35,996 bases of DNA from Desulfovibrio cuneatus DSM 11391 (GTDB taxonomy: Bacteria; Desulfobacterota; Desulfovibrionia; Desulfovibrionales; Desulfovibrionaceae), in assembly GCF_000430005.1 (NCBI RefSeq), contig NZ_AUCY01000035.1, positions 1 to 35,996 of the forward strand, given 5' to 3'. The notes under the pieces are model-generated. The model did not search any database and was not told the origin of the DNA. It saw nothing but the letters and a program-made list of their open reading frames with translations. A program made the translations under genes and the position numbers. Numbering within the stretch: position 1 is the stretch's first letter; every line of letters begins with the position of its first letter. Positions 185 to 17,866 of the stretch are shown in pieces.

Positions 185-1609
185 CTAATGGAGAATCCCC
201 CCATCTTTCATCCCCCTAAACCCACCCGGTTCCACCCCTAATCGCCGCAGGATCTTTTGCAACGAAACCCGTTCCAGCCCGGAAATACGCGCAGCTTCGG
301 AAACGTTCCCCCCGGAGCGTTCCAGCAATTCCTGCACATATTCCCGTGTAAAGGTATCCACCAGTTTACTTTTGGCTTCCTTATACGGCAAAAACTCTAT
401 TATCTCTTGCCCTGGCAGGGCACCATCTTCACTGCCAAACACAAGGTGTTCTTTTTCCAGCACTGGGCCAGGGCTAAACACCGCCATGCGGCGCACTGTG
501 TTTTGCAGTTCGCGCACGTTGCCCGGCCATTCCATGCGGCACAGGGCAGCCAGCAGTTCCGGGGAGAACCGTTTTTCTTCCGTGCGTGTTTCAGTGCACG
601 TTTTTTGCAAAAAATGGGTGGCTAGCAACGGAATATCGTCACGCCGCTCCCGCAGGGAAGGGGTACGCAAGCACAGTACGTTGAGGCGATAGTATAAATC
701 TTCCCGAAACGTGCCTGCCTTGATTTTGGCCTCAAGGTTTTGGTTGGTAACGGCAATCACGCGGGTGTCGGCCTGGAACGATTGGCTGGCCCCCACCGGG
801 CGCACCTCGCCATCTTGCAGTACCCGCAGTAATTTTGTTTGCACACTCAGAGAAATGTCCCCAATTTCATCCAGGAACAGCACCCCGCCGGAAGCTTCCA
901 GAAACAGACCTTTGCGGGTGTTCACCGCCCCGGTGAATGCCCCTTTTACGTGACCAAACAACTCACTTTCCAGCAGGTGTTCCGGAATGGCCGGGCAGTT
1001 TACCCGCACCAGGGGCTTGGCTGCCCTGTCGCTGAAGGCATGTACCGATTCTGCCACCAGCTCTTTGCCCGTGCCAGACTCCCCCCGCACCAGCACCGTG
1101 TAGCTTGCCGCTGCCACAGCCCGCAGGCTTTCCTTCAGGCGCAGCATGCTGGCAGATTCGCCAATAAGGGCATGGTGCAGGCCGGAGCGGCTCATAAGCT
1201 GTGTAAGGCGCTGGTTTTCCCCCAGCAGGCGGCTGCGCTCAAATGCCTTGGAAAGGCTGCGTATAAGGTCTTCACCGCGCACGGGCTTGGTAAGAAAATC
1301 CCAGGCCCCGCTGCGCAACGCGCTAACCGCCGTGGCTACAGTGCCGTGGCCTGTAAGAATAACCACTGAAACGTCCGGGTGCCGGGCTTTCACCTGGTGC
1401 AGTACTTCATGCCCGTCCATACCGGGCAGGCGCAAGTCCAGCAGCATAACGTGGGGGGCAAATGTTTCCAGGGCAGCCAGCCCTGCCTGGCCGGAGTGGG
1501 CCATTTCCACGCTGCATTCCGGAAAGGCTGCGGTAATTTGCCGGGCAATGCCTTTGGCAAAATCCACTTCATCATCCACAATCAAAATCCGGCTATCACA
1601 TGGGGTCAT
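185..1609 (-). CDS. NtrC-family sigma54-dependent response regulator
   Basis: This 474-residue protein has the full NtrC layout. An N-terminal receiver domain (about 7-120) carries the phosphoacceptor Asp58 in LLDLRLPG and the conserved Lys108. The central AAA+ domain (about 148-390) has Walker A GESGTGKE (176-183), the sigma54-contacting GAFTGA loop (223-228) and Walker B GGVLFLDEIG (241-250). A C-terminal Fis-type helix-turn-helix lies at about 432-457. Such proteins bind upstream palindromes and use ATP hydrolysis to open sigma54 promoters. The start overlaps the end of the upstream kinase gene by 14 bases, so the two are translationally coupled and are almost certainly a cognate pair. Likely targets are the three sigma54 promoters with paired palindromes at 4202-4390, 6781-6971 and 9485-9652; that link is inference from proximity. 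Confidence 0.93.
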   Translation of the reverse strand: MTPCDSRILIVDDEVDFAKGIARQITAAFPECSVEMAHSGQAGLAALETFAPHVMLLDLRLPGMDGHEVLHQVKARHPDVSVVILTGHGTVATAVSALRSGAWDFLTKPVRGEDLIRSLSKAFERSRLLGENQRLTQLMSRSGLHHALIGESASMLRLKESLRAVAAASYTVLVRGESGTGKELVAESVHAFSDRAAKPLVRVNCPAIPEHLLESELFGHVKGAFTGAVNTRKGLFLEASGGVLFLDEIGDISLSVQTKLLRVLQDGEVRPVGASQSFQADTRVIAVTNQNLEAKIKAGTFREDLYYRLNVLCLRTPSLRERRDDIPLLATHFLQKTCTETRTEEKRFSPELLAALCRMEWPGNVRELQNTVRRMAVFSPGPVLEKEHLVFGSEDGALPGQEIIEFLPYKEAKSKLVDTFTREYVQELLERSGGNVSEAARISGLERVSLQKILRRLGVEPGGFRGMKDGGILH

Positions 1610-4115
1610 GGCCTTGCTCCAGGGAATTCAAGGGTAAAGTAACTATAAACTCTGCACCCACGCGCACCCCCTGTTCATAACGGTTGCGCACCTCAAGTGT
1701 GCCTTTCATTTCCCGCATCATACCAAAGGCCACGGTCAACCCAAGGCCCGTGCCATGGCCTGCTGGCTTGGTGCTGAAAAACGGATCAAACAATTTGCCA
1801 AGGTTTACTTCCGGCACACCGCCGCCGTTGTCAATAACGTGAATGCTCAGGCCTGCCTGCCGGGGCAGCACTTGCGCCACAAGGCGCACCTGCCCGTGAT
1901 GCGGCGGCACTGCGTCCAGGGCGTTAAGGAGCAGGTTCACCAGCACCTGCTCCAAAAGGCCGCTGTCTGTATGCACTTGGGGCAGGTTTGGTGCGGCTTC
2001 CACCGCCAGCCCCACCTCAAGGCGCGTGGCCTTGGGCTTGAATAATTCCACCAGGGAAACAAGCAATGCCCCTACATCACATGGGCCAGCCTGGGTGACC
2101 TTGGGCCGGGAAAAATGCAGCAGGTCGCGCAGCACTGTTTGGGCACCTTCCACATGCCGTAAAATGGTTTCCACATCGGCTTTTTCCTGCCCTTCTGGCA
2201 GGGAAGCTGCCAAAAGTTCTGCATAGCAGCGGATAACCCCCAGGGGGTTGTTGATTTCATGGGCAATGCCTGCGGCAAGTTGCCCCACGGCTGCCATTTT
2301 TTCACTGCGCCGCAAGTGGCCAAGCAACTGGCGTTCTTCTGTTGTTTCCCGAATGTGCACAATGAGCCGGGTGCCAAGGCCCCTGCCTTCAATAAATGGG
2401 TATATGCCCACATCAAAGGAAAAACCGCCGGGCAGTTCCACTTCATGGGAGCTTACTTTGCCTGTTTTGGTTGCCTGCGGGGTTACCCCCATGCGCTCCA
2501 GCAATGTGGCCAAAAGGGCCTGTCTGCTTTCTTCCTGCAACACTTCAGGCCTGGCCCCTTCTTGCGGGGAAGTGTTTTGCTCCATGTGGCGCAGGCGGGC
2601 CGCAAGGTGGTGGGCTGAACTGTTGGCAAGCAATGCCCTGCCGCCAGCTTCCATAAGCAGCAAGGGGTCTGGCACCCCTTCCACCAGGGAATCCAGCAGG
2701 GTGTTCTGGTGCAGCAAGGCTTCCAGGGCTTCCAGGTTGTCCAGGGCAATGCCTATTTGGGTGCCCAAGGCCATGGCCCGTGGCACGCAGTCTTGTCCGG
2801 GCACTTCAGCGGGGGAATTCCAGAACAGGCCATACACCCCCCGGCTTTGCCCGGAAGTTTGCACAGGCAGCAGCCAGTAATTTTCTTCCAGTACAGGTTC
2901 TTCCAGGGCGCGCAAGGAAAGTTGCCCCAAATTTTCCAGGGGCGGGGCCACAGGGTTGCCCTGGGGGCGGCTTTCCGGGGGCAGGCAACCCGGCCACACC
3001 AAAGAATCCAGCCCGGCAAACCCACAGGTGTAAAATGCGGAAGATGCCCCAAAATGCCGCGCCACATGGTTTAATGAAGCACACAGCAGGTTCTTTTTCT
3101 CACCGTGCTGGTTCAGGTCGCGCAAAAGGCGAACAAACAGTTCTACGTCTGCACTACGGGCAGCCAGCACATGTTCCAGGTCTGCGGTGCGTTCCCCCAC
3201 CATGCTTTCCAGGTTTTTGGCATAGGTATTTAATTGTTCTTTGGCCGTGCCCAGGTGCGTGGCAATGGTTTCAATGCCGCGAATCATGCCTTCAATGTCT
3301 TCTTCGCGCTCTAGCGGTGCCAGCAGTTCCCCGCCGCCTTCCCGAAAGAATACGCGCTGCAAAATGCTGCCCACCCGGCGCAGGTTATGCACCACAAGGC
3401 GGTTAAAATAGCCCTGAATAACCACAAGCAGCAGTACCATGCCGGAAACAAACCATATGGCAAACATGGTGGTGGAACGAGAAGCAGGCCCGCTGGCGGT
3501 ATACAGGGGCACACTTACCAGTTCAAGCCCTGCCAGTTCTTTTTCCTGGCGGTAAAAGCCGCGCTCGCTTCCGTACATTTGCAGCAGCACTGCCGGTGCT
3601 TTTTCCGGCAGGCCATGGCAGCGCAAACAGTCGGCTGTAAAGCGCACAGGCCGGGCAATAAGCAGCCGCCCGGCATCCCCTTCATCCCTCAGTTCTTCAA
3701 TGCGGGTTAGTTTTGGGTCAACAAGAAAGCGGTTGAACAGCACTTCTTCTGCTGCTGTCACTTCAAATTCCGGGTTACGGGCATTTTTCGCCACCCGCCG
3801 AAACACGAAGGGCATGGCGTCTTCAGTAATGTTTTGCAGGACATGGCGCGTAATAAAGGAGGTAGACATGGCCTCAATAATAAAGTCGTCTGCCTCAATT
3901 CGTTTTGAAACCGCAGGGCGCAGCACTTCGCGTATATAGCGTTGAATGGCTTCGGTGTGGGCCAGCATCAGTTGGGCTTTTTCCCTGGCTTCTGCCACAA
4001 GCAATTGCTTGGTGTGGGCTTGCAGGGCCACGCCAAACAGTACGCCCATAAGCAGCAAAATAACCACAAGGCCTGCCAAGAACTTTCCTTGTAACGTCAC
4101 CGGAAAAAAACGCAT
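1596..4115 (-). CDS. Sensor histidine kinase with periplasmic c-haem-type (DUF3365/Tll0287-like) domain
   Basis: I place the start at 4115, giving 839 residues, because AAAGGAGG lies just upstream (about 4120-4127) and the next residues form a normal N-terminal anchor. A longer reading to 4268 adds 51 residues without membrane character. Order of parts: TM1 (about 12-32), a periplasmic domain (33-216) resembling DUF3365/Tll0287-like sensors with the haem-attachment motif CLRCH at 163-167, TM2 (217-236), a HAMP-like linker, a GAF-like segment (about 325-460), a PAS-like segment (about 470-590), a HisKA domain with phosphoacceptor His619 (GIAHEINNP) and a HATPase domain with N box, DNGGGV and GTGLGL. 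A covalently bound haem suggests sensing of redox state, oxygen, NO or a sulfur oxyanion; the ligand cannot be read from sequence. It overlaps its regulator and diverges from the first YeiH gene. Confidence 0.92.
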
Positions 4116-4201
4116 CAGGCCTCCTTTTGCATACCTTGGAGCGAAAATACCCTGCCAATGGTGGTACGTCGCTTGTTCCCTTGTGCCACAAGACGCACGC
4201 C

Positions 4202-4219
4202 TGCTAACTTTTGGTAGCA
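4202..4219. promoter_or_regulatory. Distal activator palindrome upstream of yeiH copy 1
   Basis: TGCTAAC-TTTT-GGTAGCA is an 18-bp inverted repeat with one mismatch to the TGCTAAC-N4-GTTAGCA consensus seen perfectly at 6781, 9485 and 9568. Its centre is 177.5 bp upstream of the -12 GC of the 4374 promoter and 103 bp from the proximal site. It also lies about 87 bp upstream of the kinase start, so autoregulation is possible. Binding by the NtrC-type regulator is inferred. Confidence 0.72.
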
Positions 4220-4304
4220 CTTTGTTGAATGCCTGAAAAATTGTTGCTGCCGTTCGTCTATAGCGCACAAATGCCGATTCTGCAACAAAAGCGTCGTGAA
4301 GGTG

Positions 4305-4322
4305 TGTTGCCGTGAGTTAGCA
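4305..4322. promoter_or_regulatory. Proximal activator site upstream of yeiH copy 1
   Basis: The right half-site GTTAGCA (4316-4322) is perfect and the left half TGTTGCC is degenerate (4 of 7 match). The centre is 74.5 bp upstream of the -12 GC, the same distance as the proximal site of copy 3 and 1 bp from that of copy 2. That spacing is the main reason to accept a degenerate site. Confidence 0.62.
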
Positions 4323-4373
4323 GTTTATTCAAAATCAAAATTATAACATGCTGATTTTACTGCAAGATAAAAA

Positions 4374-4390
4374 AGGCACAATCTTTGCTT
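4374..4390 (+). promoter_or_regulatory. Sigma54 (-24/-12) promoter of yeiH copy 1
   Basis: AGGCAC-N5-TTGCTT has GG at 4375-4376 and GC at 4387-4388, exactly 10 bp apart as sigma54 requires. The expected start is near 4400, leaving a leader of about 84 nt before the ATG at 4484. Confidence 0.82.
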
Positions 4391-4483
4391 GCAATATGAA
4401 AGATAAGGCCCTTACTGCTGCATGGGGCAAGCGCGTTTATGTTGGGGGAAAGAACTGGCTCGAACAATAGTAAAGGAGTGCAT

Positions 4484-6223
4484 ATGACGCAAACCACCAA
4501 TGATGTTGTGGTTGATAAGGCGGAATCCAAGCTTTCCGACTTGTGGACCAAGGAAGACTACTGGGCCATATGGCTTGGATTTTTCATTCTTGCCATAGCA
4601 TTCTTTGCCTTTGCAGGAGCGGACAGCAGAGAAAAGCTTGCTGCAGAAATTGCGCCGTTTCAGGCCACCATTGCCAAGGAAGCGGAAAAACCGTTCAAGT
4701 CGGTTGGCTGGTACAAGGCCACGGCAAAAAAGAATTCGTTCACAGTCAGCAGCAACGACATGGGTAAGCTCTTCAGCCATTACCTTGGCAAGCCCAAGGA
4801 CTGGTCTGACAATTTTATGGCTTCTTTTGTAAGGGATGAAGCCGCAGCAAAGGTTGCCAGCGAAAAGGCCGCCGAAAAATTTGAGGCCGCCAAAGCCAAA
4901 ACAGCCACTGCCCTGGAAGCTGCCCAGGCCGCAGAACAGGCCGCTGCCACTGGCGAATTTAAAGACGCTGCCCTGAATGAAAAGGCCGGGGCTGCTGCCA
5001 CAGCCTGGAACAAGGCAACCCAGGCAGAGGGCAAGGCCAAGTCTGCTGCCAATGCCAAGCCCTATAACCTGCTTATGACACTTCCTGTGCTCATGGTGGT
5101 GTTGGGGGCCATGTTCAGCGTTGGGGCCTTTTTCATGGGCAAAAGTGTGCCCAAATTCTTCATTGGGTTCTGTTTTGTCTTCCTTCTTGCCGTGCTTGCC
5201 CAAAGCCTTGGGGGCCAGGCCCAAATGAAGTACTGGGGCGTTGGGGCTGAAGCTTGGGCCATTATTTTGGGCATGATAATTGCCAACACGGTGGGCACCC
5301 CCAATATGTTCAAGGGTGGCTTGGAAGTAGAATATTTTATTAAAACAGGGCTCGTGCTGCTGGGTGCCGAAGTGCTCATGAGTAAAATTCTGGCCATTGG
5401 TATTCCGGGTATTTTTGTAGCCTGGGTGGTTACCCCCATTGTGCTGGTTTCCACGTATATTTTCGGTCAGAAAGTACTGAAAATGGAATCCAAAACCCTG
5501 AACATTACCATTTCGGCAGACATGAGCGTGTGCGGCACTTCCGCAGCCATTGCCACCGCTGCCGCCTGCCGTGCCAAGAAAGAAGAACTTACCCTGGCCG
5601 TGGGCCTTTCCCTCACTTTTACCGCCATTATGATGATTGCCATGCCCGCCTTTATTAAGGCCGTTGGCATGCACGACGTGCTGGGCGGTGCCTGGATTGG
5701 TGGCACCGTGGACTCCACCGGGGCTGTAACCGCAGCCGGTGCCTTTTTGGGTGAGCGGGCCATGGCCGTGGCTGCCACCATTAAAATGATTCAAAACGTG
5801 CTGATTGGCGTTACCGCTTTTTGTGTGGCTGTGTACTGGGCCACCAAGGTAGACCGTGTGGAAGGGCAAAAAGTGAGCCCCATGGAAATTTGGCACCGCT
5901 TCCCCAAGTTTGTGCTGGGCTTTCTTGGCGCATCCATCATCTTTTCGTCCCTCAGCTCTTCCCTGGGGCCAGACCTTGGCGATGCCATTGTTGACCAGGG
6001 TATTATCAAAGGCCTTTCCGGCGGCCTGCGTGGTTGGTTCTTTGTGCTGGCCTTTACTTCCATTGGCCTTGCCACCAACTTCCGCGAACTGGCAAAATAC
6101 TTTAAGGGCGGCAAACCCGTTATCTTGTATGTGTGCGGGCAAAGCTTCAACCTTCTTCTTACCCTGATCATGGCCTACATCATGTTCTACAAGGTGTTCC
6201 CGGAAATTACCGCAAGCCTGTAG
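4484..6223 (+). CDS. YeiH-family putative sulfate exporter with long N-terminal extension (copy 1)
   Basis: A multi-spanning membrane protein of the Cons_hypoth698/YeiH (PSE) family, whose members are predicted exporters of sulfate or related anions. Start chosen at 4484, preceded by AAAGGAG at 4472-4478. The permease core (about 195-579) carries the family signature [22 protein letters not shown] and [13 protein letters not shown], all shared in modified form with copies 2 and 3. At 579 residues it is over 200 longer than the other two (369 and 357). The extra part is one transmembrane helix (about 27-46) and a hydrophilic segment (47-193) whose second half (117-190) is Ala/Lys/Glu-rich and probably a long helix or coiled coil. 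It is transcribed from a sigma54 promoter and diverges from the haem kinase/regulator pair. The substrate is not established by sequence. Confidence 0.9.
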
Positions 6224-6296
6224 GGTATACTGACGCGAGAGTAAGTGTAGCTGGGCGGCCCTGCTTCCCCAGCTACACAAAAAAAGGACTTTCACA

Positions 6297-6557
6297 ATGC
6301 TTCCCACACCAGTTAACGGGCTGTGCCGCCTGGCCCTTATTGCAGTGGCGCTGTACCTGTTCTTTGGGGTAATTTCCCCCAGAATTGTAGCATTGTCCCC
6401 AGCCCTGACACACTATGGGGAAGTGCAAAGCCTGTATGGGCTGCACAGCGCTTCGGTGTACTACACAGACCAGCCTACCCTGGCCTCTACCTTAACCCAG
6501 GTACGCCGGGCTGTTACTGTGAGCAAACAGCAGCCAGAGCAGAATGCGGTGAACTAG
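6297..6557 (+). CDS. Small membrane protein downstream of yeiH copy 1
   Basis: An 86-residue protein I do not recognise. It has one clear hydrophobic helix (about 11-33, LCRLALIAVALYLFFGV onward) and a polar C-terminal half with no cysteines beyond Cys10. The start at 6297 follows a purine-rich AAAGGA about 9 bases upstream. It sits 73 bp after the permease gene, with a terminator directly at its stop codon, so it is probably cotranscribed. Small single-span proteins next to transporters often act as subunits or stability factors, but no function can be assigned here. Confidence 0.7.
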   Translation: MLPTPVNGLCRLALIAVALYLFFGVISPRIVALSPALTHYGEVQSLYGLHSASVYYTDQPTLASTLTQVRRAVTVSKQQPEQNAVN

Positions 6558-6582
6558 GAAAACCCTGTTCAAGGGTTTTTCC
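6557..6582 (+). terminator. Rho-independent terminator after yeiH copy 1 unit
   Basis: GGAAAACCCT and AGGGTTTTTCC pair around a 5-nt loop, starting inside the stop codon of the 86-residue gene. The T run lies in the descending arm. Confidence 0.7.
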
Positions 6583-6600
6583 ATGTGTATTGACCCAGTG

Positions 6601-6675
6601 AAAAGGCACATACGCCATGCATTGTAAGGGAGAGTTGCATTCTCCTGTGCAATGGATGGCGTATGTGTCTTTTTA
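6601..6675. terminator. Long three-part hairpin, bidirectional terminator-like
   Basis: An outer stem (6601-6618 with about 6657-6675, CACATACGCCAT against ATGGCGTATGTG) is flanked by A and T runs. A middle CATTG/CAATG stem and an inner GGAGA/TCTCC stem sit inside. It follows the simple terminator by only 18 bp. The 100 bases after it (6676-6780) hold no feature I can support. Confidence 0.6.
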
Positions 6676-6780
6676 AACAAGTGAATTTCGCTCGCTCGGA
6701 GCTGGAGTTGGGAAGTGCTACGGCACCTTTGTTTCCCTCGCGCCACTTTGGGCATTACGCTCCGGTCCTGTTTGTGCACC

Positions 6781-6798
6781 TGCTAACACGTGTTAGCA
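6781..6798. promoter_or_regulatory. Distal activator palindrome upstream of yeiH copy 2
   Basis: TGCTAAC-ACGT-GTTAGCA is a perfect 18-bp palindrome. Its centre is 180.5 bp upstream of the -12 GC and 105 bp from the proximal site, about ten helical turns. Confidence 0.85.
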
Positions 6799-6885
6799 CA
6801 AAGAGAAATTGCCATGTTGATTGAAATAATCATAGTAATTTATGTATGTTAACAATGCCAGCCACTGTTGCTGGGGGTAGTCTCC

Positions 6886-6903
6886 TGCCAACGCACGTTG
6901 GCA
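6886..6903. promoter_or_regulatory. Proximal activator palindrome upstream of yeiH copy 2
   Basis: TGCCAAC-GCAC-GTTGGCA is a perfect palindrome. The consensus T/A at the fourth position of each arm is changed symmetrically to C/G, so dyad symmetry is preserved. Its centre is 75.5 bp upstream of the -12 GC. Confidence 0.85.
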
Positions 6904-6955
6904 TAAAAGAGGAAGTCGATAAATTTAACAGACTGTTTTTATTGTAAATTATAAA

Positions 6956-6971
6956 TGGCACAAACTTTGCT
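6956..6971 (+). promoter_or_regulatory. Sigma54 (-24/-12) promoter of yeiH copy 2
   Basis: TGGCAC-N5-TTGCT matches the sigma54 consensus, with GG at 6957-6958 and GC at 6969-6970. The expected start near 6982 leaves a leader of about 124 nt before the ATG at 7106. Confidence 0.92.
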
Positions 6972-7105
6972 ATAATTTGGCATACTTGCAAGCCAGCGAT
7001 AATTTTGGCAGCGGGAATAGCGTGAAGGATATTCCTTCTTGGCTAACCCACTATTGCGCGCCTTATTTGCTGGCAATGCCAACACACCACGTGGAGGAGT
7101 TTGGA

Positions 7106-8215
7106 ATGGAAGAGAGAGGAACTCTGGGGAAACTTGCAGCCATTATACCCGGCCTGGCACTTATGGTGGGCACGCTTGCTGTGTTACGCCTTTATGTGGA
7201 ACCATGGATGGGGGAAGTGACGCTTTTTGGCGTAAAAGGCTGGCTTGTTAAGGTACTGAGCTTGAACTACATTTTGTTGTCCATTATTACCGGGATGTTG
7301 TTCCGCAACTTCATTTTTGGGGGAAGAATTCCCGCATGGGCGGAAGAAGGTTTCCGCACTACCCGCCTGTTCATTAAAACAGGGGTTATTATGCTGGGTT
7401 CCTTGTATACCCTGCAAACCTTGCTTAAGCTTGGTGTAAGTGCTGCCGTACTCATTTTGGGTTTCGTGTTTGGCACCGTGTTCCTGGTTATGTTCCTTGG
7501 CCGCATGATGAAGGTAGACCGTTCCGTTACTGCGGTTATGGCGGCTGCCTGTGGAGTATGCGGTGTTTCCGCCGCTGTGGCCGCTGCCCCCGGGGTGCGT
7601 GCCCGGCCTGTGGACCTTGCCCTTGCCATTGCCACCATTCTTGGCTTTGGTATTCTTACCATGTTCATCAGCCCTTTTATTGGCACTGCTCTGAACCTTT
7701 CCGATTTTCAGTATGGCGCATGGGTGGGCACGGGCATTTTGAACTCTGGCCAAGTGCTTGCCACCTGCCTTGCCTTTAACCCCAACATTGCTCCAGGCAC
7801 TGCTGTTGCCTACGGCGAAGTGTGGAACGTGGTGCGCGTTATTAGTATTCCCTTTGTGGTTTTTGCCATTACCGTGTGGTACTGGAAAGGGGAAGCAGAT
7901 GCGAAAAAGGCCAGCCTTTCCAAAATTCTTGTTTCCAAGTTCCCCGTGTTTGTTCTTGGCTTTTTCGGCATGACAGCCCTTTCTTCCCTTGGTATGCTGG
8001 GGGCTGAAGGTTCTGAAACGCTGCACCTTCTTCGCACGTTCATGGCCTGGATTTTCGGTATTGGCCTTGTGGGGCAGGGCGCTTACATTGACTTTCGCGA
8101 AATCAAGGCAGCAGGCGGCAAACCCCTGCGCATTGGCATTATTGCCGGTACAACCAAATATATACTGGCTCTTATTGTTATTCTGCTGTTCATGCCCAAG
8201 GAAGTTGGCTTTTAG
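7106..8215 (+). CDS. YeiH-family putative sulfate exporter (copy 2)
   Basis: A 369-residue polytopic membrane protein of the YeiH/PSE family. Start chosen at 7106 because GGAGGAG lies at 7093-7099; the upstream in-frame extension contains the sigma54 promoter and is not coding. Family signatures are GVCGVSAAVA, WVGTGILNSGQVLA and KFPVFVLGFFGMTALSS. Where copy 1 has GTVDSTGAV, this copy and copy 3 have GI-x-NS-x-QVLA, so these two form a subtype and may prefer a different anion. It lacks the N-terminal extension of copy 1. The unit continues into the lipoyl-fold protein (8357) and the Usp-like protein (8949). The predicted activity is anion efflux; no substrate is shown by sequence. Confidence 0.9.
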   Translation: MEERGTLGKLAAIIPGLALMVGTLAVLRLYVEPWMGEVTLFGVKGWLVKVLSLNYILLSIITGMLFRNFIFGGRIPAWAEEGFRTTRLFIKTGVIMLGSLYTLQTLLKLGVSAAVLILGFVFGTVFLVMFLGRMMKVDRSVTAVMAAACGVCGVSAAVAAAPGVRARPVDLALAIATILGFGILTMFISPFIGTALNLSDFQYGAWVGTGILNSGQVLATCLAFNPNIAPGTAVAYGEVWNVVRVISIPFVVFAITVWYWKGEADAKKASLSKILVSKFPVFVLGFFGMTALSSLGMLGAEGSETLHLLRTFMAWIFGIGLVGQGAYIDFREIKAAGGKPLRIGIIAGTTKYILALIVILLFMPKEVGF

Positions 8216-8356
8216 AGTAATAGCGTATTGCACTGGCACCTGCCATGGCAAACAGGATATTGCGCAGCATTGGGCAAAAAGCCCGGAGAAAAGAATACTC
8301 TCAGGTGCAGCGTATAAAAGCCCTCACTTATAGAATGTAAAGCGAAGGAATGCTTC

Positions 8357-8752
8357 ATGAGCGAAAAGAAACAATCCATGACCGTTTTCCGGTCTGACAG
8401 GCACGAAGACGTTGCGGCCATGATATTTGCTGGTCTTGTGGTACTGTTTGTGCTTGGGTATATGGCCTTTATTGTGCCTGAAGTACACGTAACAGCTGCC
8501 ATGGACGGCAAAGTGGCCTCTATTCTTGTGCAGTCCGGCACAGAAGTAAAAAAAGGCGACACCATTTACACCCTTGAAGTGGTGGAAAAAAAATGGGTGA
8601 ACAACGTTATGCAGGAAAATACTGTTATTAAAGACATTACGGTAAAAGCAGACGGTAAAGTGCTGGATGTGCCTGCAAAAGTTGGGGACAAAGTTAAAAA
8701 GAGCAAAAACACCATCATTGTGCTTAACCACGTTAAGGGAACGCTCCCGTAA
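8357..8752 (+). CDS. Membrane-anchored lipoyl/biotinyl-fold protein without canonical attachment motif
   Basis: A 131-residue protein with a start supported by GAAGGA 8-9 bases upstream. A single transmembrane helix (about 18-42) is followed by a barrel-sandwich (biotinyl/lipoyl-like) domain. The repeated pattern DGKVASILVQSGTEVKKGD ... ADGKVLDVPAKVGDKVKK is typical of the two halves of that fold. Biotin domains carry AMKM and lipoyl domains an E-x-DK-A turn between the halves; here the region reads LEVVEKKW, so modification is doubtful. Such domains also occur unmodified as hairpin subunits in membrane fusion proteins. It lies 141 bp after yeiH copy 2 and 196 bp before the Usp-like gene on the same strand. 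An accessory subunit role is plausible but unproven. Confidence 0.75.
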   Translation: MSEKKQSMTVFRSDRHEDVAAMIFAGLVVLFVLGYMAFIVPEVHVTAAMDGKVASILVQSGTEVKKGDTIYTLEVVEKKWVNNVMQENTVIKDITVKADGKVLDVPAKVGDKVKKSKNTIIVLNHVKGTLP

Positions 8753-8780
8753 ACCCTGTGCGCACAAGAGTTGAGTAAGG

Positions 8781-8799
8781 CCATTGCAACACTGCGTTT
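8781..8799. repeat. 19-bp sequence shared exactly with 29077-29095
   Basis: CCATTGCAACACTGCGTTT occurs here and at 29077-29095, both intergenic. Read on the minus strand, this copy begins GGGAAACGCAGT, which resembles the family A end GGGAAACGCTCAGT. Both may be decayed repeat ends. Confidence 0.5.
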
Positions 8800-8948
8800 C
8801 CCGTTATTTTCCATTGAAGACTACTTTGCACTCGTCTTGAATGCCCTGGCGCAATATGCCCCTTGAGTGCTAATGGAATAGGGTGAAACGTTGCGGTGCA
8901 TGGCCTTTTGCTTGTTTTACCAGCATCTTTCTAATCCAAAGGGCCCAC

Positions 8949-9419
8949 ATGAACACTGCCGTACATAATTCTGGCGCACCGCGCACCTTGTTGCTGGTGC
9001 TGGACGACACCCCTGGTGTTTTTGAAGAAGCCCTGCGCATTGCCAAGCAGCACAAGGCACACCTAACCGGGCTGTTTGTTCTGGATGCCACCTGGAATGG
9101 GTATGTTGCCCATGACTGGCTCTCCGGCAGCGGTTCCCGTGGAGATTTCCTTGACTATATTAATGATGAGGAAAAAAAATCTGCCCAGGAAGCCCTGCAA
9201 CGGTTTGAAGCACAGACCAAAGGCGTTGTAGAAGCCGAATTTGTGATGAGCGCAGGCCATGTGGTGGAGCAAGCCATTGCCCAAATGGAAAAAGGATACG
9301 ACCTTGTGGTTGTTCCCAACCCCCTGCGGCGTGGGCTTGAAGTGATGCGCGACGGCGTGGCGGAACTTACCCGAAAAGCCCCCTGCCGAGTACTGCTGGT
9401 GCCTGCACGGCAAGAGTAA
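8949..9419 (+). CDS. Universal stress protein (Usp)-like protein
   Basis: A 156-residue cytoplasmic alpha/beta protein of the Usp fold. It starts with a beta strand rich in hydrophobics (TLLLVLDDTPG), then the helix EEALRIAKQHKAHLTGLFVLD, and ends with DLVVVPNPLRRG and the terminal strand CRVLLVPA. The ATP-binding G-x2-G-x9-G-S/T motif of nucleotide-binding Usp proteins is not visible, so it is probably a non-ATP-binding type. Start chosen at 8949 (AAAGGG just upstream); the longer reading from 8883 adds 22 residues unlike the family. It is the last gene of the yeiH copy 2 unit, ending before a strong hairpin. A second Usp-like gene follows copy 3, suggesting a conserved functional pairing with these permeases. 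Confidence 0.8.
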   Translation: MNTAVHNSGAPRTLLLVLDDTPGVFEEALRIAKQHKAHLTGLFVLDATWNGYVAHDWLSGSGSRGDFLDYINDEEKKSAQEALQRFEAQTKGVVEAEFVMSAGHVVEQAIAQMEKGYDLVVVPNPLRRGLEVMRDGVAELTRKAPCRVLLVPARQE

Positions 9420-9470
9420 GTAACGAATGAAATAAGGTAATTGCTCTGCTTCAGAATATTACGTTTTAGT

Positions 9471-9521
9471 CCCAATTTTCGGCATGCTAACGCACGTTAG
9501 CATGCCGAAAATTGGGTTTTT
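9471..9521 (+). terminator. Terminator after the Usp gene that embeds an activator palindrome
   Basis: Positions 9471-9491 and 9496-9516 are perfect complements (21-bp arms, 4-nt GCAC loop), followed by TTTTTG. This is a strong rho-independent terminator for the copy 2 unit. The innermost 7 bp of each arm are TGCTAAC/GTTAGCA, the distal activator site of copy 3, so one palindrome may act in both RNA and DNA. Confidence 0.8.
9485..9502. promoter_or_regulatory. Distal activator palindrome upstream of yeiH copy 3
   Basis: Perfect TGCTAAC-GCAC-GTTAGCA, at the heart of the 46-bp palindrome 9471-9516. Its centre is 157.5 bp upstream of the -12 GC and 83 bp from the proximal site, about eight helical turns. 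Confidence 0.82.
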
Positions 9522-9567
9522 GTATTGTATATGTTTAATATTATTGGTTATTTGAGAAGAAAGAGCA

Positions 9568-9585
9568 TGCTAACTTACGTTAGCA
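9568..9585. promoter_or_regulatory. Proximal activator palindrome upstream of yeiH copy 3
   Basis: Perfect TGCTAAC-TTAC-GTTAGCA, centred 74.5 bp upstream of the -12 GC. The flanks add further pairing (AAGAGC before, GCTCTT after). Confidence 0.85.
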
Positions 9586-9636
9586 GGCTCTTATGGTGTG
9601 AAAAAACAACCATCTGTTTTTACTGATAATTTAAAA

Positions 9637-9652
9637 CGGCATACACCTTGCT
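9637..9652 (+). promoter_or_regulatory. Sigma54 (-24/-12) promoter of yeiH copy 3
   Basis: CGGCAT-N5-CTTGCT has GG at 9638-9639 and GC at 9650-9651 with the required 10-bp gap. The leader of about 200 nt (9663-9863) contains several short hairpins: GCCATCT/AGATGGC (about 9686-9711), CTTCCC/GGGAAG, and the palindrome TAGCCATATGGCTA. No known riboswitch was recognised in it. Confidence 0.8.
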
Positions 9653-9863
9653 ATAGGCCATGCCTGTGACCAACAGGAACAAAGCCATCTGCACACAGCG
9701 AAAGATGGCCTAAACCACCAAACGCACTCATTTTACAGGAAAATAAAGTTCCTTTATTCGTGCTTTTGGGAGTTTCTTCCCTGCGGGAAGTCGCTTTACG
9801 ATTATTGCCCAATAGCCATATGGCTACGTTTTTCATCTTTTACCGTACAAGGGGCCGTTCATT

Positions 9864-10937
9864 ATGACGCAGTCCACCCAGGCAAGCATTGCGCTCCCAA
9901 AGAAAAATTTATTTGTTGCCTCGCTTCCCGGCGTTGCGTTGTTGCTCACTGTTGCCGTTGTTGCATGGCACGTTACTCCGGTTATCAACGGCTTGCACCC
10001 TGTTATGGTTGGCCTGAACCTGAGCAACTTCATTGTTGCCATTCTGTTTGGCATGCTTATTCGCAACACCGTTGGGGTTGCCCAGGTGTTTCGCCCCGGG
10101 CTTGGCTATTCCACCATTCTTACCAAAACAGGCATTGTGGTCATGGGCTGCAAGTATTCCTTTGCCGGGCTGGTGAAAACAGGCAGTGAAGCGCTGATTA
10201 TCATTGCGGTATTTCTGTTTGTTTCCGCCCTGGTGCTAATGTGGATAAGCCGCTTGTACAAAATGCCGCCCGCCCTGGGGGCATGTTTGGCTGCCGGGCT
10301 TTCCGTGTGTGGTGTTTCCGCCTGTGTTGCCCTTGCCCCGGCTGTAAAGGCCAAGAACGAAGACATTGCCTACACCATTGCTGTGGTGCTTATGTTTGGC
10401 CTTATTGCCCTGTTCACCTTTCCCTTTATCGGGCGCTGGTTTGAGCTTTCCGCCAACCAGTTTGGGGCCTTTGCAGGGGTTGGCATTGTGAACTCGGCCC
10501 AGGTGTTGGCAGCTGGTTTTGCGTTCAGCCCGGAAGCTGGGGTTGTGGCCGGGGTTTATAACATCGGGCGCGTCATTTTTCTGCCCATTATAGTGCTTAT
10601 GCTGGCCATTATGGTGGCTACGCAAGACGACGACGTGCGCCAGCAAATGGATGGCACAAACAAGCTGCGCATCATTATTGATAAATTTCCTGTGTTTGTT
10701 CTGGGATTCTTGGTTGTGGTTATGCTGAATACGTTTGGTATGCTTACCCCTACGGAGGCTAAAAAAGCCAGCCACTTCATGGACTGGTGTTTTTTGCTGG
10801 GTTTTGCCAGCATTGGGCTTACCACACGCTTGGCAGATATTAAAGCCGCTGGCTTTTCCGGTGTGTTGCTTGGCTTTGTGGTGGCTTCCGTAAAAGCTGT
10901 GCTGGCCCTGTTTGTTGTGCTGCAATTTCTGGATTAG
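9864..10937 (+). CDS. YeiH-family putative sulfate exporter (copy 3)
   Basis: A 357-residue polytopic membrane protein of the YeiH/PSE family, the shortest of the three and close to the usual family length. The start at 9864 follows AAGGGG at about 9850. Family signatures are SVCGVSACVA, FAGVGIVNSAQVLA and KFPVFVLGFLVVV. The N-S-x-Q-V-L-A segment groups it with copy 2 rather than copy 1. It begins with a short polar N-terminus and TM helices from about residue 20. Its promoter region carries two perfect activator palindromes. A 30-residue membrane peptide and a Usp-like gene follow after 235 bp, echoing the accessory genes of copy 2. Anion export is the family prediction; the substrate is unknown. 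Confidence 0.9.
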   Translation: MTQSTQASIALPKKNLFVASLPGVALLLTVAVVAWHVTPVINGLHPVMVGLNLSNFIVAILFGMLIRNTVGVAQVFRPGLGYSTILTKTGIVVMGCKYSFAGLVKTGSEALIIIAVFLFVSALVLMWISRLYKMPPALGACLAAGLSVCGVSACVALAPAVKAKNEDIAYTIAVVLMFGLIALFTFPFIGRWFELSANQFGAFAGVGIVNSAQVLAAGFAFSPEAGVVAGVYNIGRVIFLPIIVLMLAIMVATQDDDVRQQMDGTNKLRIIIDKFPVFVLGFLVVVMLNTFGMLTPTEAKKASHFMDWCFLLGFASIGLTTRLADIKAAGFSGVLLGFVVASVKAVLALFVVLQFLD

Positions 10938-11132
10938 AGCAATTTCACTTTACAATTGCTCGGTGGCAGCGTTGCTGCCACCCGCGAAGCATGTTGTTTT
11001 ATTTTAGTAGATCACATGACTACTTTGAAAAAATCAATGCGCTGCATGATAAGCCAATGTATACTTTCAAAGGTAAAATGCTCTCATGCAGCAACGGTTG
11101 CCTTGTGCAGTGAACGCACTGCGATACAACCA
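10937..11132. other. Hairpin-rich spacer between yeiH copy 3 and the 30-residue ORF
   Basis: Four stems lie here: GAGCAATT/AATTGCTC (10937-10961), GGTGGCAGC/GCTGCCACC with a 3-nt loop (10962-10982), GCTGCATGA/TCATGCAGC (11041-11049 with 11084-11092) and GCAGTG/CACTGC (about 11117-11132). The second is followed loosely by a T-rich stretch. They could terminate or attenuate readthrough into 11173. No promoter of sigma54 type is visible before 11173. Confidence 0.5.
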
Positions 11133-11172
11133 TGACGAAATAACACATTCAAAACGCCTTCAGGAGGTACCT

Positions 11173-11265
11173 ATGTGGAACGCGATTTCTAAAAGCAGAC
11201 GGCAGGATATTATAGTCATTTGTTGCGGCATACTCCTTGTGGGTGTTGCCAAGCTGCTGGCGTAA
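11173..11265 (+). CDS. 30-residue single-span membrane peptide
   Basis: A short ORF with a very good ribosome-binding site (AGGAGG at 11162-11167, 5-base spacing) and the typical shape of a small membrane protein. It has a basic, polar N-terminus (MWNAISKSRRQD) and a hydrophobic helix (IIVICCGILLVGVAKLLA) with adjacent cysteines at 17-18. The stop at 11263 lies 8 bases before the start of the Usp-like gene, so translation is probably coupled. I do not recognise a family. Its position parallels the 86-residue membrane protein after copy 1 and the lipoyl-fold protein after copy 2: each permease has a small single-span neighbour. Confidence 0.65.
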   Translation: MWNAISKSRRQDIIVICCGILLVGVAKLLA

Positions 11266-11273
11266 GGGCAGCC

Positions 11274-11738
11274 ATGCCCACACAGTTTGCCACCCCGCCG
11301 CAACACGAGGCAACTGCACAGCAACCCATGGCCCTGGTGTGCCTTGCTGCACAGGCAACACCCCCGGTGCAGGGCACAACAGTGCTGGCCCATGCAGGCG
11401 TACATGCCGCGCACGTACTGGGGCTGTACCTGCTGGCGGTAGATTTGGCCCACTATGGGCAGGTGGACCACCTGGCCCCGGCAGGTGCCATGGGGGAGTT
11501 TACCGACTACGTGCAACAACTGGCCCGTGACGAGGCGCAAAACGCATTTGCTCCGCTACAGGCAGCCCTGGCACCGCATTCCTTGCCTGTGGAAGTGCAT
11601 GCAACCACGGCGCAGGAAGGGCTGCATGCGGTATTACGCCAACTGGCCCAGCAATATGCACAGGTAGTGCTTCTCCTTCCCCCTGGCATGCCTGCCCCCG
11701 CTGCAAAGGGGATGTGTACGGCAATCATTCAGGAATAA
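11274..11738 (+). CDS. Divergent Usp-like protein
   Basis: A 154-residue protein with a weak but visible universal-stress-protein plan: strand MALVCLAAQA, the segment VLGLYLLAVDLAHYG, the helix DYVQQLARDEAQNAFAPLQAAL, then a region like VHATTAQEGLHAVLRQLAQQYAQVVLLLPPG. The ATP-binding glycine motif is absent. Start chosen at 11274, 8 bases after the stop of the 30-residue peptide; the longer reading to 11220 would run through that gene in another frame. Composition is Ala/Gln/His-rich. Together with the Usp at 8949 it suggests that the two short YeiH permeases each travel with a Usp-like partner. The family call is tentative. Confidence 0.6.
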   Translation: MPTQFATPPQHEATAQQPMALVCLAAQATPPVQGTTVLAHAGVHAAHVLGLYLLAVDLAHYGQVDHLAPAGAMGEFTDYVQQLARDEAQNAFAPLQAALAPHSLPVEVHATTAQEGLHAVLRQLAQQYAQVVLLLPPGMPAPAAKGMCTAIIQE

Positions 11739-11741
11739 GGC

Positions 11742-11926
11742 GTTGCCCACTGGGCAACCCTGCTATTCAGACCAATAGTGTCCGGCTATCTTTTTGCTCT
11801 CTCCAAGCATTGCCTTAAAAGAGAAGACAAAAAGAGGTGATTATAAAGGCAAACGACACGCTACGCGGGACAATTTTGCGAGCAAAATTGCCCCAATTCT
11901 GTCCGGTTTTTAACCGGACAGAATTG
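11742..11926. other. Hairpins between the Usp-like gene and upp terminator
   Basis: GTTGCCC/GGGCAAC (about 11744-11760) directly follows the stop. CAATTTTGC/GCAAAATTG (11871-11890) and a 15-bp stem CAATTCTGTCCGGTT/AACCGGACAGAATTG (11894-11926) come further on. The sequence GACAATT followed by a stem resembles the inner hairpin of repeat family A, so this may be a decayed copy. Confidence 0.45.
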
Positions 11927-11938
11927 TATTCAGACGTA

Positions 11939-11977
11939 AAAATACCCCCCCGGAACATGCGCTTCCGGGGGGGTATT
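11939..11977 (-). terminator. Terminator of upp
   Basis: AATACCCCCCCGGAA (11941-11955) pairs with TTCCGGGGGGGTATT (11963-11977) around a 7-nt loop. On the minus strand the stem is followed by T residues. It lies 23 bp past the upp stop. Confidence 0.88.
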
Positions 11978-12000
11978 GTATTTGCAATAAGTAACAGGGG

Positions 12001-13079: not shown

Positions 13080-13223
13080 GTCTAATGCTGTGCGGCTAAA
13101 AACTGTGAAGCATTGGACATAACCTTTTGTTGCCAAAGCTCCCACAGCCTTTTATACTTTGGGTCAATGCCTGTGCATTGTCCAAAAATTCCTTGTATCC
13201 GCACTTTCTCAAAGGCCTTATTC

Positions 13224-15017
13224 ATGCCCATCAATTCATGTCCGCAAGCCACACATACCTTTACTACGCCTGCGGGTTCCCCCCGGCAACGGCTAGACAA
13301 GCTCCTTGCCGCCCACCTTGCCCCCCTTGGCTATTCCCGCGAGCGGGTGAAAGACTGCATCAAGCAGGGGCAGGTGTTGCTTGACGGCGCAGCCTGTCTT
13401 TCCCCCAAGGAAGCGGTGCCCGGCGGCGTAACCATTGCCATTGCCCTGCCAGAGCGCGAAACCAGTTTGAAGGCAGAAGTCGGAGAGCTGTGCATTGTGT
13501 ACCAGGACGACGACATGGCCGTGGTGAATAAGCCTGCGGATTTGACCGTGCACCCCTGCCCCGGCAGGCCGGAAGGCACCCTTGCCCATATTCTGCTGCA
13601 CCATTTTCCCGACCTGCACCTTATGGAAGGTTCGCGCCCCGGCATTGTGCACCGGCTGGACAAAGACACCACAGGCCTGTTGCTGGTGGCCCTGCATGAA
13701 CGGGCCCGCCTTGCCCTGGCCGAACAGTTTGCCCAACGCGGCGTGTATAAGGAATATCTGGCCCTTGTGCATGGGGTGCCCCGCCAGCCCAGTGGGGAAA
13801 TTCATGCCCCCATTGGCCGCCACCCCACCCGCAAAACCCTTATGGCGGTCGTGCCCACAGGCAGGGAAGCCCACACGGGCTACACAACACTACATGCAGA
13901 CAAACAAGGCCGCTACGCCCTGTTGGCTGTGCGTATTTACACGGGCAGAACCCACCAGATTCGCGTGCACCTGAAGCACATTGGCCACCCCCTGCTGGGG
14001 GATTATACCTATGGGGCCCCGCAAACCACCCTGCACGCGGCCCAGCGCCCCATGCTGCATGCCTGGCGGCTGGCTGTTACCCACCCCAGTGCAGCGGAAA
14101 GTGCTGCACAACAACCCCTAGCAGAAACAAGCGCTCCCAACAAAAAAACGGCTAAAAATGCGGCCAATGCCCAGCAGGAAAAGCGCCCGCAGCGCGTTAC
14201 CCTTGCCGGGGGGACTACCTTTACCTGCCAGGACAACCGCCTTGCCTTTGCCTGCCCGCCCCCGCCCGATTTTATCGCCACTCTCACCTTGCTGGCAGGG
14301 CGTTTTTTGCCTGTGGTCATTACCGGTTCGCCGGGGTGTGGCAAGTCGCGCCTGTTGCAGCACTTTGCCGGGCAGGGTTACCCCACCCTCAGTGCTGATG
14401 CCGTGGTGGCAGAGCTCTACAAACACGGGGCTGATGGCTGGCAACTGCTGCGTGCCCGGTTTGGCACCCGCTTCATTCCGCAGGAGCAGGGCGGGGTAGA
14501 CAAAACAGCCCTTGGCGCTGCCATGATGGCAGATGAGCACCTGCGGCGGGAAGTGGAAGCCATGCTGCACCCCATGGTATTCCATGCCATTGCCACCTTC
14601 TGGAACACAGCGGCGGCGCAGGGGGCCCCCCTGGCCTTTGCCGAAATTCCCTTGTACCTGGAAACCGGTGCAACATTTTCCAACCCTGGCCTGCATATGC
14701 CGGAAGAATACCGGCTGCGTGCCCCAGCCCTGGTGGGGGTACATGCCCCCTTTGCCGTGCGCCAGCAGCGCCTTGCCGGGCTGCGCGGCTGGAGCCAGGA
14801 AGCCATTGACACCATTGAAGGCTGGCAATGGCCGGAAGAACAGAAAATGGCGGCCTGCCAGTATGTGCTGGAAAACAGCGCCCCAGACCCGGAAGGTATA
14901 GCCCTTGCTGCCAGCGCCGCCCCCCTGGAGCAGCGCCTGCTGGCGGTGGGGGAAGAAGGGTGCGCCAGCCTGTTGCGCCGGTTGGAGACCTTGTGGGCCA
15001 CGCCGCCACAAGAATGA
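13224..15017 (+). CDS. Fused RluA/RluD-family pseudouridine synthase and dephospho-CoA kinase
   Basis: A 597-residue two-domain protein. The N-terminal half (about 20-290) is a pseudouridine synthase with an S4-like RNA-binding segment (21-75) and the catalytic motif HRLDKDTTGLL, Asp146 being the nucleophile expected to act on uridine in rRNA or tRNA. After a low-complexity linker (about 290-345) comes a CoaE domain (about 363-590) with P-loop GSPGCGKS (368-375), ADAVVAELY and EIPLYLETG. CoaE phosphorylates dephospho-CoA at the 3'-hydroxyl in the last step of CoA synthesis. I chose the start at 13224 (AAAGG at 13211-13215, 8-base spacing); starts at 13167 or 13113 are possible. There is no frameshift between the halves, so this is a real fusion; I recall similar fusions in Desulfovibrio relatives. 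Confidence 0.9.
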   Translation: MPINSCPQATHTFTTPAGSPRQRLDKLLAAHLAPLGYSRERVKDCIKQGQVLLDGAACLSPKEAVPGGVTIAIALPERETSLKAEVGELCIVYQDDDMAVVNKPADLTVHPCPGRPEGTLAHILLHHFPDLHLMEGSRPGIVHRLDKDTTGLLLVALHERARLALAEQFAQRGVYKEYLALVHGVPRQPSGEIHAPIGRHPTRKTLMAVVPTGREAHTGYTTLHADKQGRYALLAVRIYTGRTHQIRVHLKHIGHPLLGDYTYGAPQTTLHAAQRPMLHAWRLAVTHPSAAESAAQQPLAETSAPNKKTAKNAANAQQEKRPQRVTLAGGTTFTCQDNRLAFACPPPPDFIATLTLLAGRFLPVVITGSPGCGKSRLLQHFAGQGYPTLSADAVVAELYKHGADGWQLLRARFGTRFIPQEQGGVDKTALGAAMMADEHLRREVEAMLHPMVFHAIATFWNTAAAQGAPLAFAEIPLYLETGATFSNPGLHMPEEYRLRAPALVGVHAPFAVRQQRLAGLRGWSQEAIDTIEGWQWPEEQKMAACQYVLENSAPDPEGIALAASAAPLEQRLLAVGEEGCASLLRRLETLWATPPQE

Positions 15018-17831: not shown

Positions 17832-17866
17832 CCAGCGTTTTCCCACTTTCAACCCCACCCACTGCT

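Follow-up and report, generated by a model that had tools for sequence, protein, structure and literature searches.

A probable local sigma54 regulon joining a heme-linked two-component system to three PF03601 transporters in Desulfovibrio cuneatus

We analyzed a stretch of 35,996 nucleotides from Desulfovibrio cuneatus DSM 11391 (assembly GCF_000430005.1, contig NZ_AUCY01000035.1, positions 1 to 35,996; hereafter the window), in which genes for a response regulator and a sensor histidine kinase lie beside three PF03601 transporter genes, PSE-A, PSE-B and PSE-C. Each transporter gene is preceded by a sigma54-type promoter and palindromes of one kind; the strict form of the palindrome is confined to this locus within the genome, and the motif is conserved beside the same gene types in relatives. 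We consider it highly probable that these parts constitute a local sigma54 regulon, in which one heme-linked two-component system turns on three transporters via the common palindrome. The genes of the locus, with lengths in amino acids (aa), are as follows.

185–1609, minus strand: NtrC-type response regulator (PF00072, PF00158 and PF02954; GAFTGA at residue 223; Fis-type helix-turn-helix SEAARISGLERVSLQKILRRLG)
1596–4115, minus strand: membrane sensor histidine kinase (PF11845 at 92.7 bits, Tll0287-like, sCache_heme; PF00512 HisKA; PF02518 HATPase; heme-c motif CLRCH)
4484–6223, plus strand: PSE-A, PF03601 transporter of 579 aa (PF03601 at 155.7 bits)
7106–8215, plus strand: PSE-B, PF03601 transporter of 369 aa (PF03601 at 159.8 bits)
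8357–8752, plus strand: 131-aa protein with a biotin/lipoyl-like domain (PF13533, PF00364), relatives of which adjoin PSE-B genes
8949–9419, plus strand: universal stress protein (Usp; PF00582 at 28.2 bits on the 8883 open reading frame (ORF); no NCBIfam match)
9864–10937, plus strand: PSE-C, PF03601 transporter of 357 aa (PF03601 at 201.7 bits)

The kinase start was set at the ATG at 4115 in a frame open from 4268, and that of PSE-B at the ATG at 7106 in a frame open from 6977. All three transporters exceed the Pfam gathering score for PF03601 (24.5). An earlier reading made from the letters alone (the sequence-only reading) had named them YeiH-family genes; the PF03601 assignment holds, but their scores against the curated YeiH model TIGR00698 (75.3 bits for PSE-A, then 90.6 and 131.7 for PSE-B and PSE-C) are all under its cut-off of 232.6. 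The three proteins are only 27–35% identical to one another, so the sites described below were not inherited via recent gene duplication; PSE-B is 67–76% identical to eight relatives. The heme-c motif CXXCH is present in 79 of 79 kinase rows scoring >440 bits (six contigs fetched twice are included); it lies within the first 350 ORF residues in 78, while the remaining row has an over-long ORF with the motif at residue 353. No match to the kinase was found at E 1e-60 in 14 other genomes of the genus (65–95% complete). The D. cuneatus genome contains one rpoN (a single PF04552 match, 207 bits), and the sigma54-activator domain PF00158 is strongly matched 19 times in it, the window's regulator included.

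Promoters were scored against the context TGGCAC-N5-TTGC, with GG and GC 10 bp apart and a maximum score of 14, and palindromes were compared with the 18-bp consensus TGCTAAC-N4-GTTAGCA. The following features were predicted, all on the plus strand.

4202–4219, plus strand: predicted distal enhancer site of promoter A, TGCTAACTTTTGGTAGCA; 1 mismatch; rank 5 (16.5 bits) with a matrix from relatives only
4305–4322, plus strand: predicted, degenerate proximal enhancer site of promoter A, TGTTGCCGTGAGTTAGCA; 3 mismatches; 8.0 bits
4374–4388, plus strand: sigma54 promoter A, AGGCACAATCTTTGC; score 13/14
6781–6798, plus strand: predicted distal enhancer site of promoter B, TGCTAACACGTGTTAGCA; 0 mismatches
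6886–6903, plus strand: predicted proximal enhancer site of promoter B, TGCCAACGCACGTTGGCA; 2 mismatches; TGCCAAC-N4-GTTGGCA
6956–6970, plus strand: sigma54 promoter B, TGGCACAAACTTTGC; score 14/14, a full match to the consensus used
9471–9516, plus strand: probable terminator of the PSE-B operon; 22-bp perfect stem, then TTTTT, directly after the Usp gene
9485–9502, plus strand: predicted distal enhancer site of promoter C, TGCTAACGCACGTTAGCA; 0 mismatches; inside the terminator stem
9568–9585, plus strand: predicted proximal enhancer site of promoter C, TGCTAACTTACGTTAGCA; 0 mismatches
9637–9651, plus strand: sigma54 promoter C (weak), CGGCATACACCTTGC; score 12/14

Each promoter is the top-scoring plus-strand sigma54-like site of its own intergenic region and has the GG-N10-GC spacing, which bears out the earlier claim that a −24/−12 promoter with exact spacing precedes each transporter gene. 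The same reading had assigned two TGCTAAC-N4-GTTAGCA-type sites to every promoter; five of these have zero to two mismatches, but the site at 4305 is degenerate. With up to 3 mismatches allowed, the window holds 7 matches (the seventh is at 25692, with 3 mismatches) against 1.73 expected; in 100 shuffles the count always stayed below 7. Recomputed from the coordinates, the proximal centres lie 74.5, 75.5 and 74.5 bp from the −12 C of A, B and C, and the two sites of each pair are 103, 105 and 83 bp apart, identical to the values first reported. Under a uniform 60–140 bp model, the chance of three proximal distances agreeing within 1 bp is ~0.0009; the near-whole helical turns first remarked on for the site-to-site distances are, by themselves, weak evidence. 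The spacers have a G+C content of 21%, 21% and 31%. In the enhancer-promoter intervals, no IHF site was detected at B or C, and two 1-mismatch matches were detected at A. The region 4001–12000 as a whole has a G+C content of 0.48–0.52, below most of the remaining window (0.52–0.60). Upstream of promoter B, an imperfect inverted repeat (6601–6673; 33 nt, 85% complementary, 7 nt between the arms) follows an 86-aa ORF at 6297–6557 that has no Pfam match. No Rfam family or tRNA was found in the window.

The distal site of promoter C lies within a perfect stem of 22 bp, with TTTTT after it, directly behind the Usp gene, as would be seen if some of the palindromes, chiefly this one, were terminators with incidental similarity to the motif. 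Of the other five sites, however, only that at 9568 appears in the terminator listing, weakly and on the minus strand, and the same half-sites are found again, with promoter geometry, in other genomes. We give this explanation hardly any weight, and intrinsic termination as the sole explanation was rejected since it fits 9485 alone. Site 9485 is likely to be both a terminator stem and an enhancer site. A single sequence at 9471–9516 may terminate one operon and activate the next.

Confinement of the motif was assessed by scanning the strain's own assembly (3,359,127 bases, 76 contigs). The exact pattern TGCYAAC-N4-GTTRGCA occurs four times in the genome, always in the window (6781, 6886, 9485 and 9568), and its reversed control does not occur. 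One mismatch adds 4202 and two others (C15 and C21), and two mismatches add 30 more; at up to two mismatches there are 37 forward and 18 reversed matches genome-wide. For each of the 32 weaker matches outside the window, one of the six frames runs through 100 codons or more without a stop, which is a weak sign of coding sequence. A sigma54-like score of at least 12 is found within 250 bp of 8 of the 32, no excess over the roughly one third predicted from the window's background rate (60 in ~72,000 strand-positions). Thus, the genome scan proposed with the initial reading agrees with a strict motif restricted to this locus. Four of the eight (L245, L251, L261 and L264) have their sigma54-like site at distances of, in ascending order, 88.5, 108.5, 108.5 and 109.5 bp; a single repeated sequence, close to contig ends, accounts for both L245 and L264. 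As these distances belong to the spacing classes of the family described below, weak additional members of the regulon may exist, although none is convincing.

Conservation was examined in 119 genomes of the family, from which 100 stretches were annotated. Stretches extended up to 18.5 kb where a relative of the regulator was present and 7 kb in most other cases; absence of a regulator means that none is on the stretch, and PF03601 genes without a nearby kinase are a sample. Of 95 PSE ORFs found, the 94 with at least 200 bits were used in the counts, the window's three included. Counts of upstream sites, of promoters with palindromes, of spacing and of helix and motif treat genomes as independent, ignoring relatedness.

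Exact sites occur in 13 of the 119 genomes, 17 in total (four being the window's), and the reversed pattern is absent. Sixteen of the 17, or 12 of 13 when the window is excluded, lie no more than 700 bp upstream of a PF03601 gene or of a gene related to this kinase, with a 200-bp tolerance for errors in the gene start. Matches to TGCNAAC-N4-GTTNGCA with 0, 1 and 2 mismatches number 16, 14 and 30 in 56,127 PSE-upstream positions, and 6, 8 and 40 in the remaining 1,371,636 positions of the same 101 sequences (window included); the reversed pattern gives 0, 0 and 1 upstream of PSE genes and 0, 2 and 20 elsewhere. A promoter scoring at least 12 with a palindrome upstream (counting only sites 40–200 bp upstream of the best such promoter) precedes 39 of 58 PSE genes that have a regulator relative, three of them the window's, and 3 of 36 with no regulator relative on the stretch. 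When a matrix was built from 21 proximal sites of relatives alone, the window's five good sites ranked 1–5 (25.4, 24.3, 23.1, 22.4 and 16.5 bits).

The layout of two sites per promoter that had been read from the window, as for two bound dimers, holds at all three of its promoters but is not general. At a 7-bit threshold, two or more sites are present at 16 of 47 regulator-linked promoters scoring at least 12 (three of the 16 are the window's), one site at 27 and none at 4; paired sites are the rule in this window, not across the family. The notion of a separate enhancer for each transporter subfamily was given up for A: A-type promoters of relatives often carry TGYAAAC, but L085 and L096 have TGCCAAC. 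PSE-B operons of L147 (Desulfobulbaceae) and L155 (Desulfobacterales) have sigma54 scores of 14 and 13 and no TGCNAAC palindrome at up to two mismatches. For the kinase operon of the window, no sign of sigma54 autoregulation was found, the best minus-strand site in 4096–4420 scoring 11 and lacking the −12 GC. At four Nitratidesulfovibrio-type loci (L149, L150, L167 and L173), a second sigma54-like site faces the kinase operon on the minus strand, with a score of 12–13 at 48.5 bp from the palindrome, and autoregulation is possible there.

Enhancer-promoter spacing was measured for 52 sites upstream of promoters scoring at least 12, five of them the window's; the three-mismatch site at 4305 was excluded. 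The distance from the site centre to the −12 C falls at 74.5–75.5 bp (n = 3), 83.5–88.5 bp (19), 105.5–110.5 bp (21), 129.5–132.5 bp (4) or 157.5–190.5 bp (5), and none of the 52 sites lies between 89 and 105 or between 111 and 129 bp. The two large classes contain A-type and B-type transporters alike. For 37 sites at 60–140 bp, with the window and repeated promoter sequences left out, the best mean resultant length over periods of 10–11.5 bp was 0.74, a value reached by none of 5000 uniform draws. This suggests a face-of-the-helix constraint on enhancer position, which is unproven because shared ancestry inflates the periodicity signal.

A tree of regulators was built from 75 rows, after removal of six duplicate fetches of contigs and of L159, whose regulator is cut. 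The window's regulator is one of 15 in a clade with support 100/97, and 10 of the 15 adjoin a PSE gene and a 131-aa gene. It sits on a long branch and groups with regulators of Nitratidesulfovibrio-type PSE-B loci (DVU0539 of D. vulgaris, discussed below, is not among the tree rows); regulators of other PSE-B loci (Solidesulfovibrio, Fundidesulfovibrio and others) fall in other clades. Its recognition helix is ERVSLQKI. Exact sites are present at 11 of 33 loci with helix ERVSLQKI or ERVSVQKI versus 2 of 42 others, and sites with up to one mismatch to TGCNAAC-N4-GTTNGCA at 22 of 33 such loci versus 15 of 42 others. Helix and motif thus tend to go together, with exceptions. Genome G045 has only two exact sites: one before its kinase-regulator operon (L052) and the other 1.2 Mb away before a transporter (L096), where a promoter with the full TGGCAC-N5-TTGC consensus lies 106.5 bp from the site. 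This unlinked pair is the strongest single indication that this type of regulator reads this site. The motif probably belongs to the regulator at 185–1609, as the sequence-only reading had proposed, because the motif adjoins this kinase and regulator type across genera and because of the unlinked case in G045; the comparison thereby supports a local regulon read by this protein.

Several observations weigh against such a regulon. Site 4305 ranks only 9th in the window with the relatives-only matrix, beneath 33539, 34329 and 34929. Nitratidesulfovibrio-type loci have a similar degenerate site, TGCTGCCGCGAGTTAGCA, between kinase and transporter, yet at 88.5 bp from a PSE-B promoter. The promoter at 9637 is weak alone, a score of at least 12 being reached at 60 sites of the window on both strands. 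Positions 4100–11000 contain 12 sigma70-like matches versus 5.6 ± 2.5 in shuffles, five of which fall at 6809–7033; near B, a sigma70 promoter may therefore be present. Covariation of helix and motif is loose: L049 and L051 have exact sites with helix SRVALQKI, and 11 of the 33 ERVS-type loci have no site at one mismatch. In G045, the site at L052 has no sigma54 score of at least 12 within 450 bp. One exact site of the family, L097:8001–8018 in G085, is near neither a transporter nor a kinase. A split-Soret cytochrome, which PMC3333781 names for other genomes, was considered as the gene at this site, but Pfam gave no match for the ORF that covers it. The nearest homologues found of PSE-A (L127, 73%), PSE-B (L145 and L146, 84%) and PSE-C (L221–L226, 67–75%) show no sigma54 score of at least 12 and no such palindrome; for PSE-A and PSE-B, gain in this lineage and loss in others are indistinguishable. 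Finally, identity of the motif with that of the D. vulgaris regulators DVU0539 and DVU0946 would follow from gene content and conservation rather than from a letter-by-letter comparison.

Some of these points would also fit a smaller circuit in which only promoter B is truly controlled and the sites at A and C are remnants or chance occurrences. The degenerate proximal site of A, the weakness of promoter C and the predominance of PSE-B operons beside members of the regulator clade (10 of 15 rows) are in its favor. However, the top two matrix scores in the window (25.4 and 24.3 bits) belong to the sites of promoter C, A keeps the spacing, and the low identity among the three transporters argues that the sites do not stem from recent duplication. 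We regard control of B alone as unlikely. The palindromes could instead be operators of an unrelated dimeric repressor, or sites of another enhancer-binding protein. A palindrome alone does not identify its binder, the genome has 18 other strong PF00158 matches, and both the sigma70-like matches near B and the loose covariation of helix and motif fit such a protein. Against this, the motif tracks this kinase and regulator type across genera, the unlinked G045 included; 17 of those 18 other proteins were examined and none carries the helix ERVSLQKI, the nearest being LERSYLYKKL; and in relatives the sites are mostly upstream of the promoter, not over it (exceptions are L048, L095, L119 and L129). 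A different binder is accordingly judged improbable, somewhat more so than control of B alone. TunR was dropped as a candidate binder, its name being absent from the literature found.

For PSE-C, the history of the enhancer can be considered further. C-type homologues (E 1e-70 or better) are present in 15 other family genomes of 288, and all 15 loci were examined. Nine of these (L227–L235) have a kinase and a regulator downstream, the regulator of L230 being cut by the stretch end. In eight of the nine, a sigma54 promoter scoring 13–14 and an upstream TGTTCCC-N4-GGGAACA palindrome (0–1 mismatch) are found; L235 has neither. For the six closest homologues (67–75%), the stretch contains no regulator, sigma54 scores do not exceed 11, and TGTTCCC palindromes are absent even with three mismatches allowed; a TGCNAAC palindrome with up to two mismatches is found at none of the 15 loci. 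With its two high-scoring TGCTAAC sites, PSE-C of the window is therefore an exception among C-type genes. The simplest reading for this gene is a change of enhancer or a gain, and PSE-C seems to have been captured, since its own subfamily elsewhere has either no sigma54 promoter or another enhancer. We suggest only tentatively, as a possibility on the doubtful side, the fuller scenario in which PSE-C acquired, at fixed promoter spacing and with one copy in a terminator stem, the enhancer of a heme-c-sensing regulator and so came under joint control with A and B, to form a heme-gas or redox-triggered sulfur-anion efflux response.

Within the local regulon proposed here, the membrane kinase (1596–4115) would detect a heme ligand or a redox change through its heme-c Cache sensor and phosphorylate the NtrC-type regulator (185–1609). 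Dimers of the regulator would then bind the TGCTAAC-N4-GTTAGCA palindromes and assemble into an AAA+ ATPase ring, and looping of the AT-rich spacer (21–31% G+C) would bring it into contact with sigma54-RNA polymerase at the three promoters. The result would be a joint switch-on of transporter A, the operon of transporter B, the 131-aa protein and Usp, and transporter C. Binding, phosphorylation and activation are predicted here from domain content and site arrangement. The signal may be nitric oxide (NO) or a different ligand of the heme, a change in redox state, or sulfite. The Tll0287-like domain is described as a heme-c Cache sensor in a 2026 preprint (PMC12889525), which also reports NO-sensor properties and slow NO release for the one signalling-type sCache_heme protein tested, from P. 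azotoformans.

The transporters may move a sulfur oxyanion such as sulfite. Anion efflux is the likely output, and sulfite is the leading guess by analogy with YeiH proper, which is reported to confer sulfite resistance in Salmonella (PMC12880088). Two points weaken this guess: the transporters score too low for the YeiH model, and molybdate phenotypes are known from D. vulgaris. There, DVU0540 and DVU0542 are reported to matter for growth with molybdate, the other genes of the cluster except DVU0539 being detrimental (PMC10102598), and DVU0539 additionally targets the lactate operon and lowers its promoter background in E. coli (PMC3333781). The circuit could accordingly serve molybdate or lactate physiology rather than sulfur oxyanion or NO stress. 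Set against this are the sulfite phenotype of Salmonella YeiH, a model that the window's transporters do not reach, and the heme-c Cache domain of the sensor with its slowly NO-releasing relative. We consider a molybdate or lactate role a sizeable possibility, short of an even chance.

Elsewhere in the window, one open frame at 13113–15017 contains pseudouridine synthase and dephospho-CoA kinase (CoaE) domains, an apparent fusion, and a SulP-type sulfate permease with a STAS domain is encoded at 17756–20281, ~7 kb from the regulon.

Several known systems resemble parts of this circuit. As in sigma54 regulation of the NtrC/AtoC/ZraR type, the regulator has the typical domain order, GAFTGA and a Fis helix-turn-helix, and upstream palindromes accompany −24/−12 promoters; unlike those proteins, it is under the cut-off of all 25 NCBIfam models listed of the 108 matching, and is therefore none of the named regulators these represent. 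In the YeiE-YeiH system of Salmonella, too, a regulator adjoins a PF03601 transporter, but the regulator there is a LysR-type sulfite-binding protein rather than a sigma54 two-component system, and the window proteins reach 75–132 bits against 232.6. The kinase shares PF11845 and CXXCH with sCache_heme (DUF3365/Tll0287) kinases, whereas the signalling-type protein tested comes from P. azotoformans. The C-type operons with their own kinase and regulator (L227–L235) likewise pair a PF03601 gene with a sigma54 promoter and an upstream 7-4-7 palindrome in eight of nine cases; they differ in the TGTTCCC-N4-GGGAACA enhancer, in the regulator helix (TRKQLWLKL in L228 and L227, SRKVLWKKM in L235) and in the plain Cache-HAMP sensor of the L228 kinase.

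The closest counterparts are DVU0539 and DVU0946 of D. vulgaris Hildenborough, paralogous response regulators with a common motif and sigma54-linked targets (Rajeev 2011, PMC3333781; Kazakov 2015, PMC4641369 Table 1). Their reported targets are DVU0542–0545 (Usp, PSE, 133-aa protein and Usp), DVU0943–0946 and DVU2133–2132 (PMC3333781, PMC4641369, PMC10102598); the DVU0542 promoter is activated by both regulators in E. coli (PMC3333781), and regulator and motif of this type are described as conserved in environmental Desulfovibrio (PMC3333781, PMC4641369, PMC10102598). The likeness extends from the NtrC-type regulator and sigma54-linked target operons to the gene set, as the window contains the regulator, kinase, PSE, ~131-aa protein and Usp. 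The kinase adjacent to DVU0539 is also divergent from the Usp-PSE-133aa-Usp operon, and DVU0544 (133 aa) has the same operon position as the 131-aa protein. In contrast, the window lacks the first Usp (DVU0542 type) before PSE-B, has no lactate genes, and sets three transporters, each from a different subfamily, next to a single regulator. The window circuit is thus a relative of the DVU0539/DVU0946 regulons and of a kind already known. The literature searched yielded nothing on a heme sensor in such kinases, on spacing classes or on an enhancer change at PSE genes. With a heme-c sensor kinase, a defined enhancer and three promoters, the 'putative sulfate exporters' of sulfate reducers become a testable circuit, and the relatives offer a natural data set on the evolution of sigma54 systems in enhancer sequence, in activator helix and in the spacing between enhancer and promoter; one gene in it apparently moved to the enhancer type of another activator. 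To the circuit known from D. vulgaris, the window and its relatives add a heme sensor, spacings that fall into discrete classes, and a transporter, C, that appears to have been captured.

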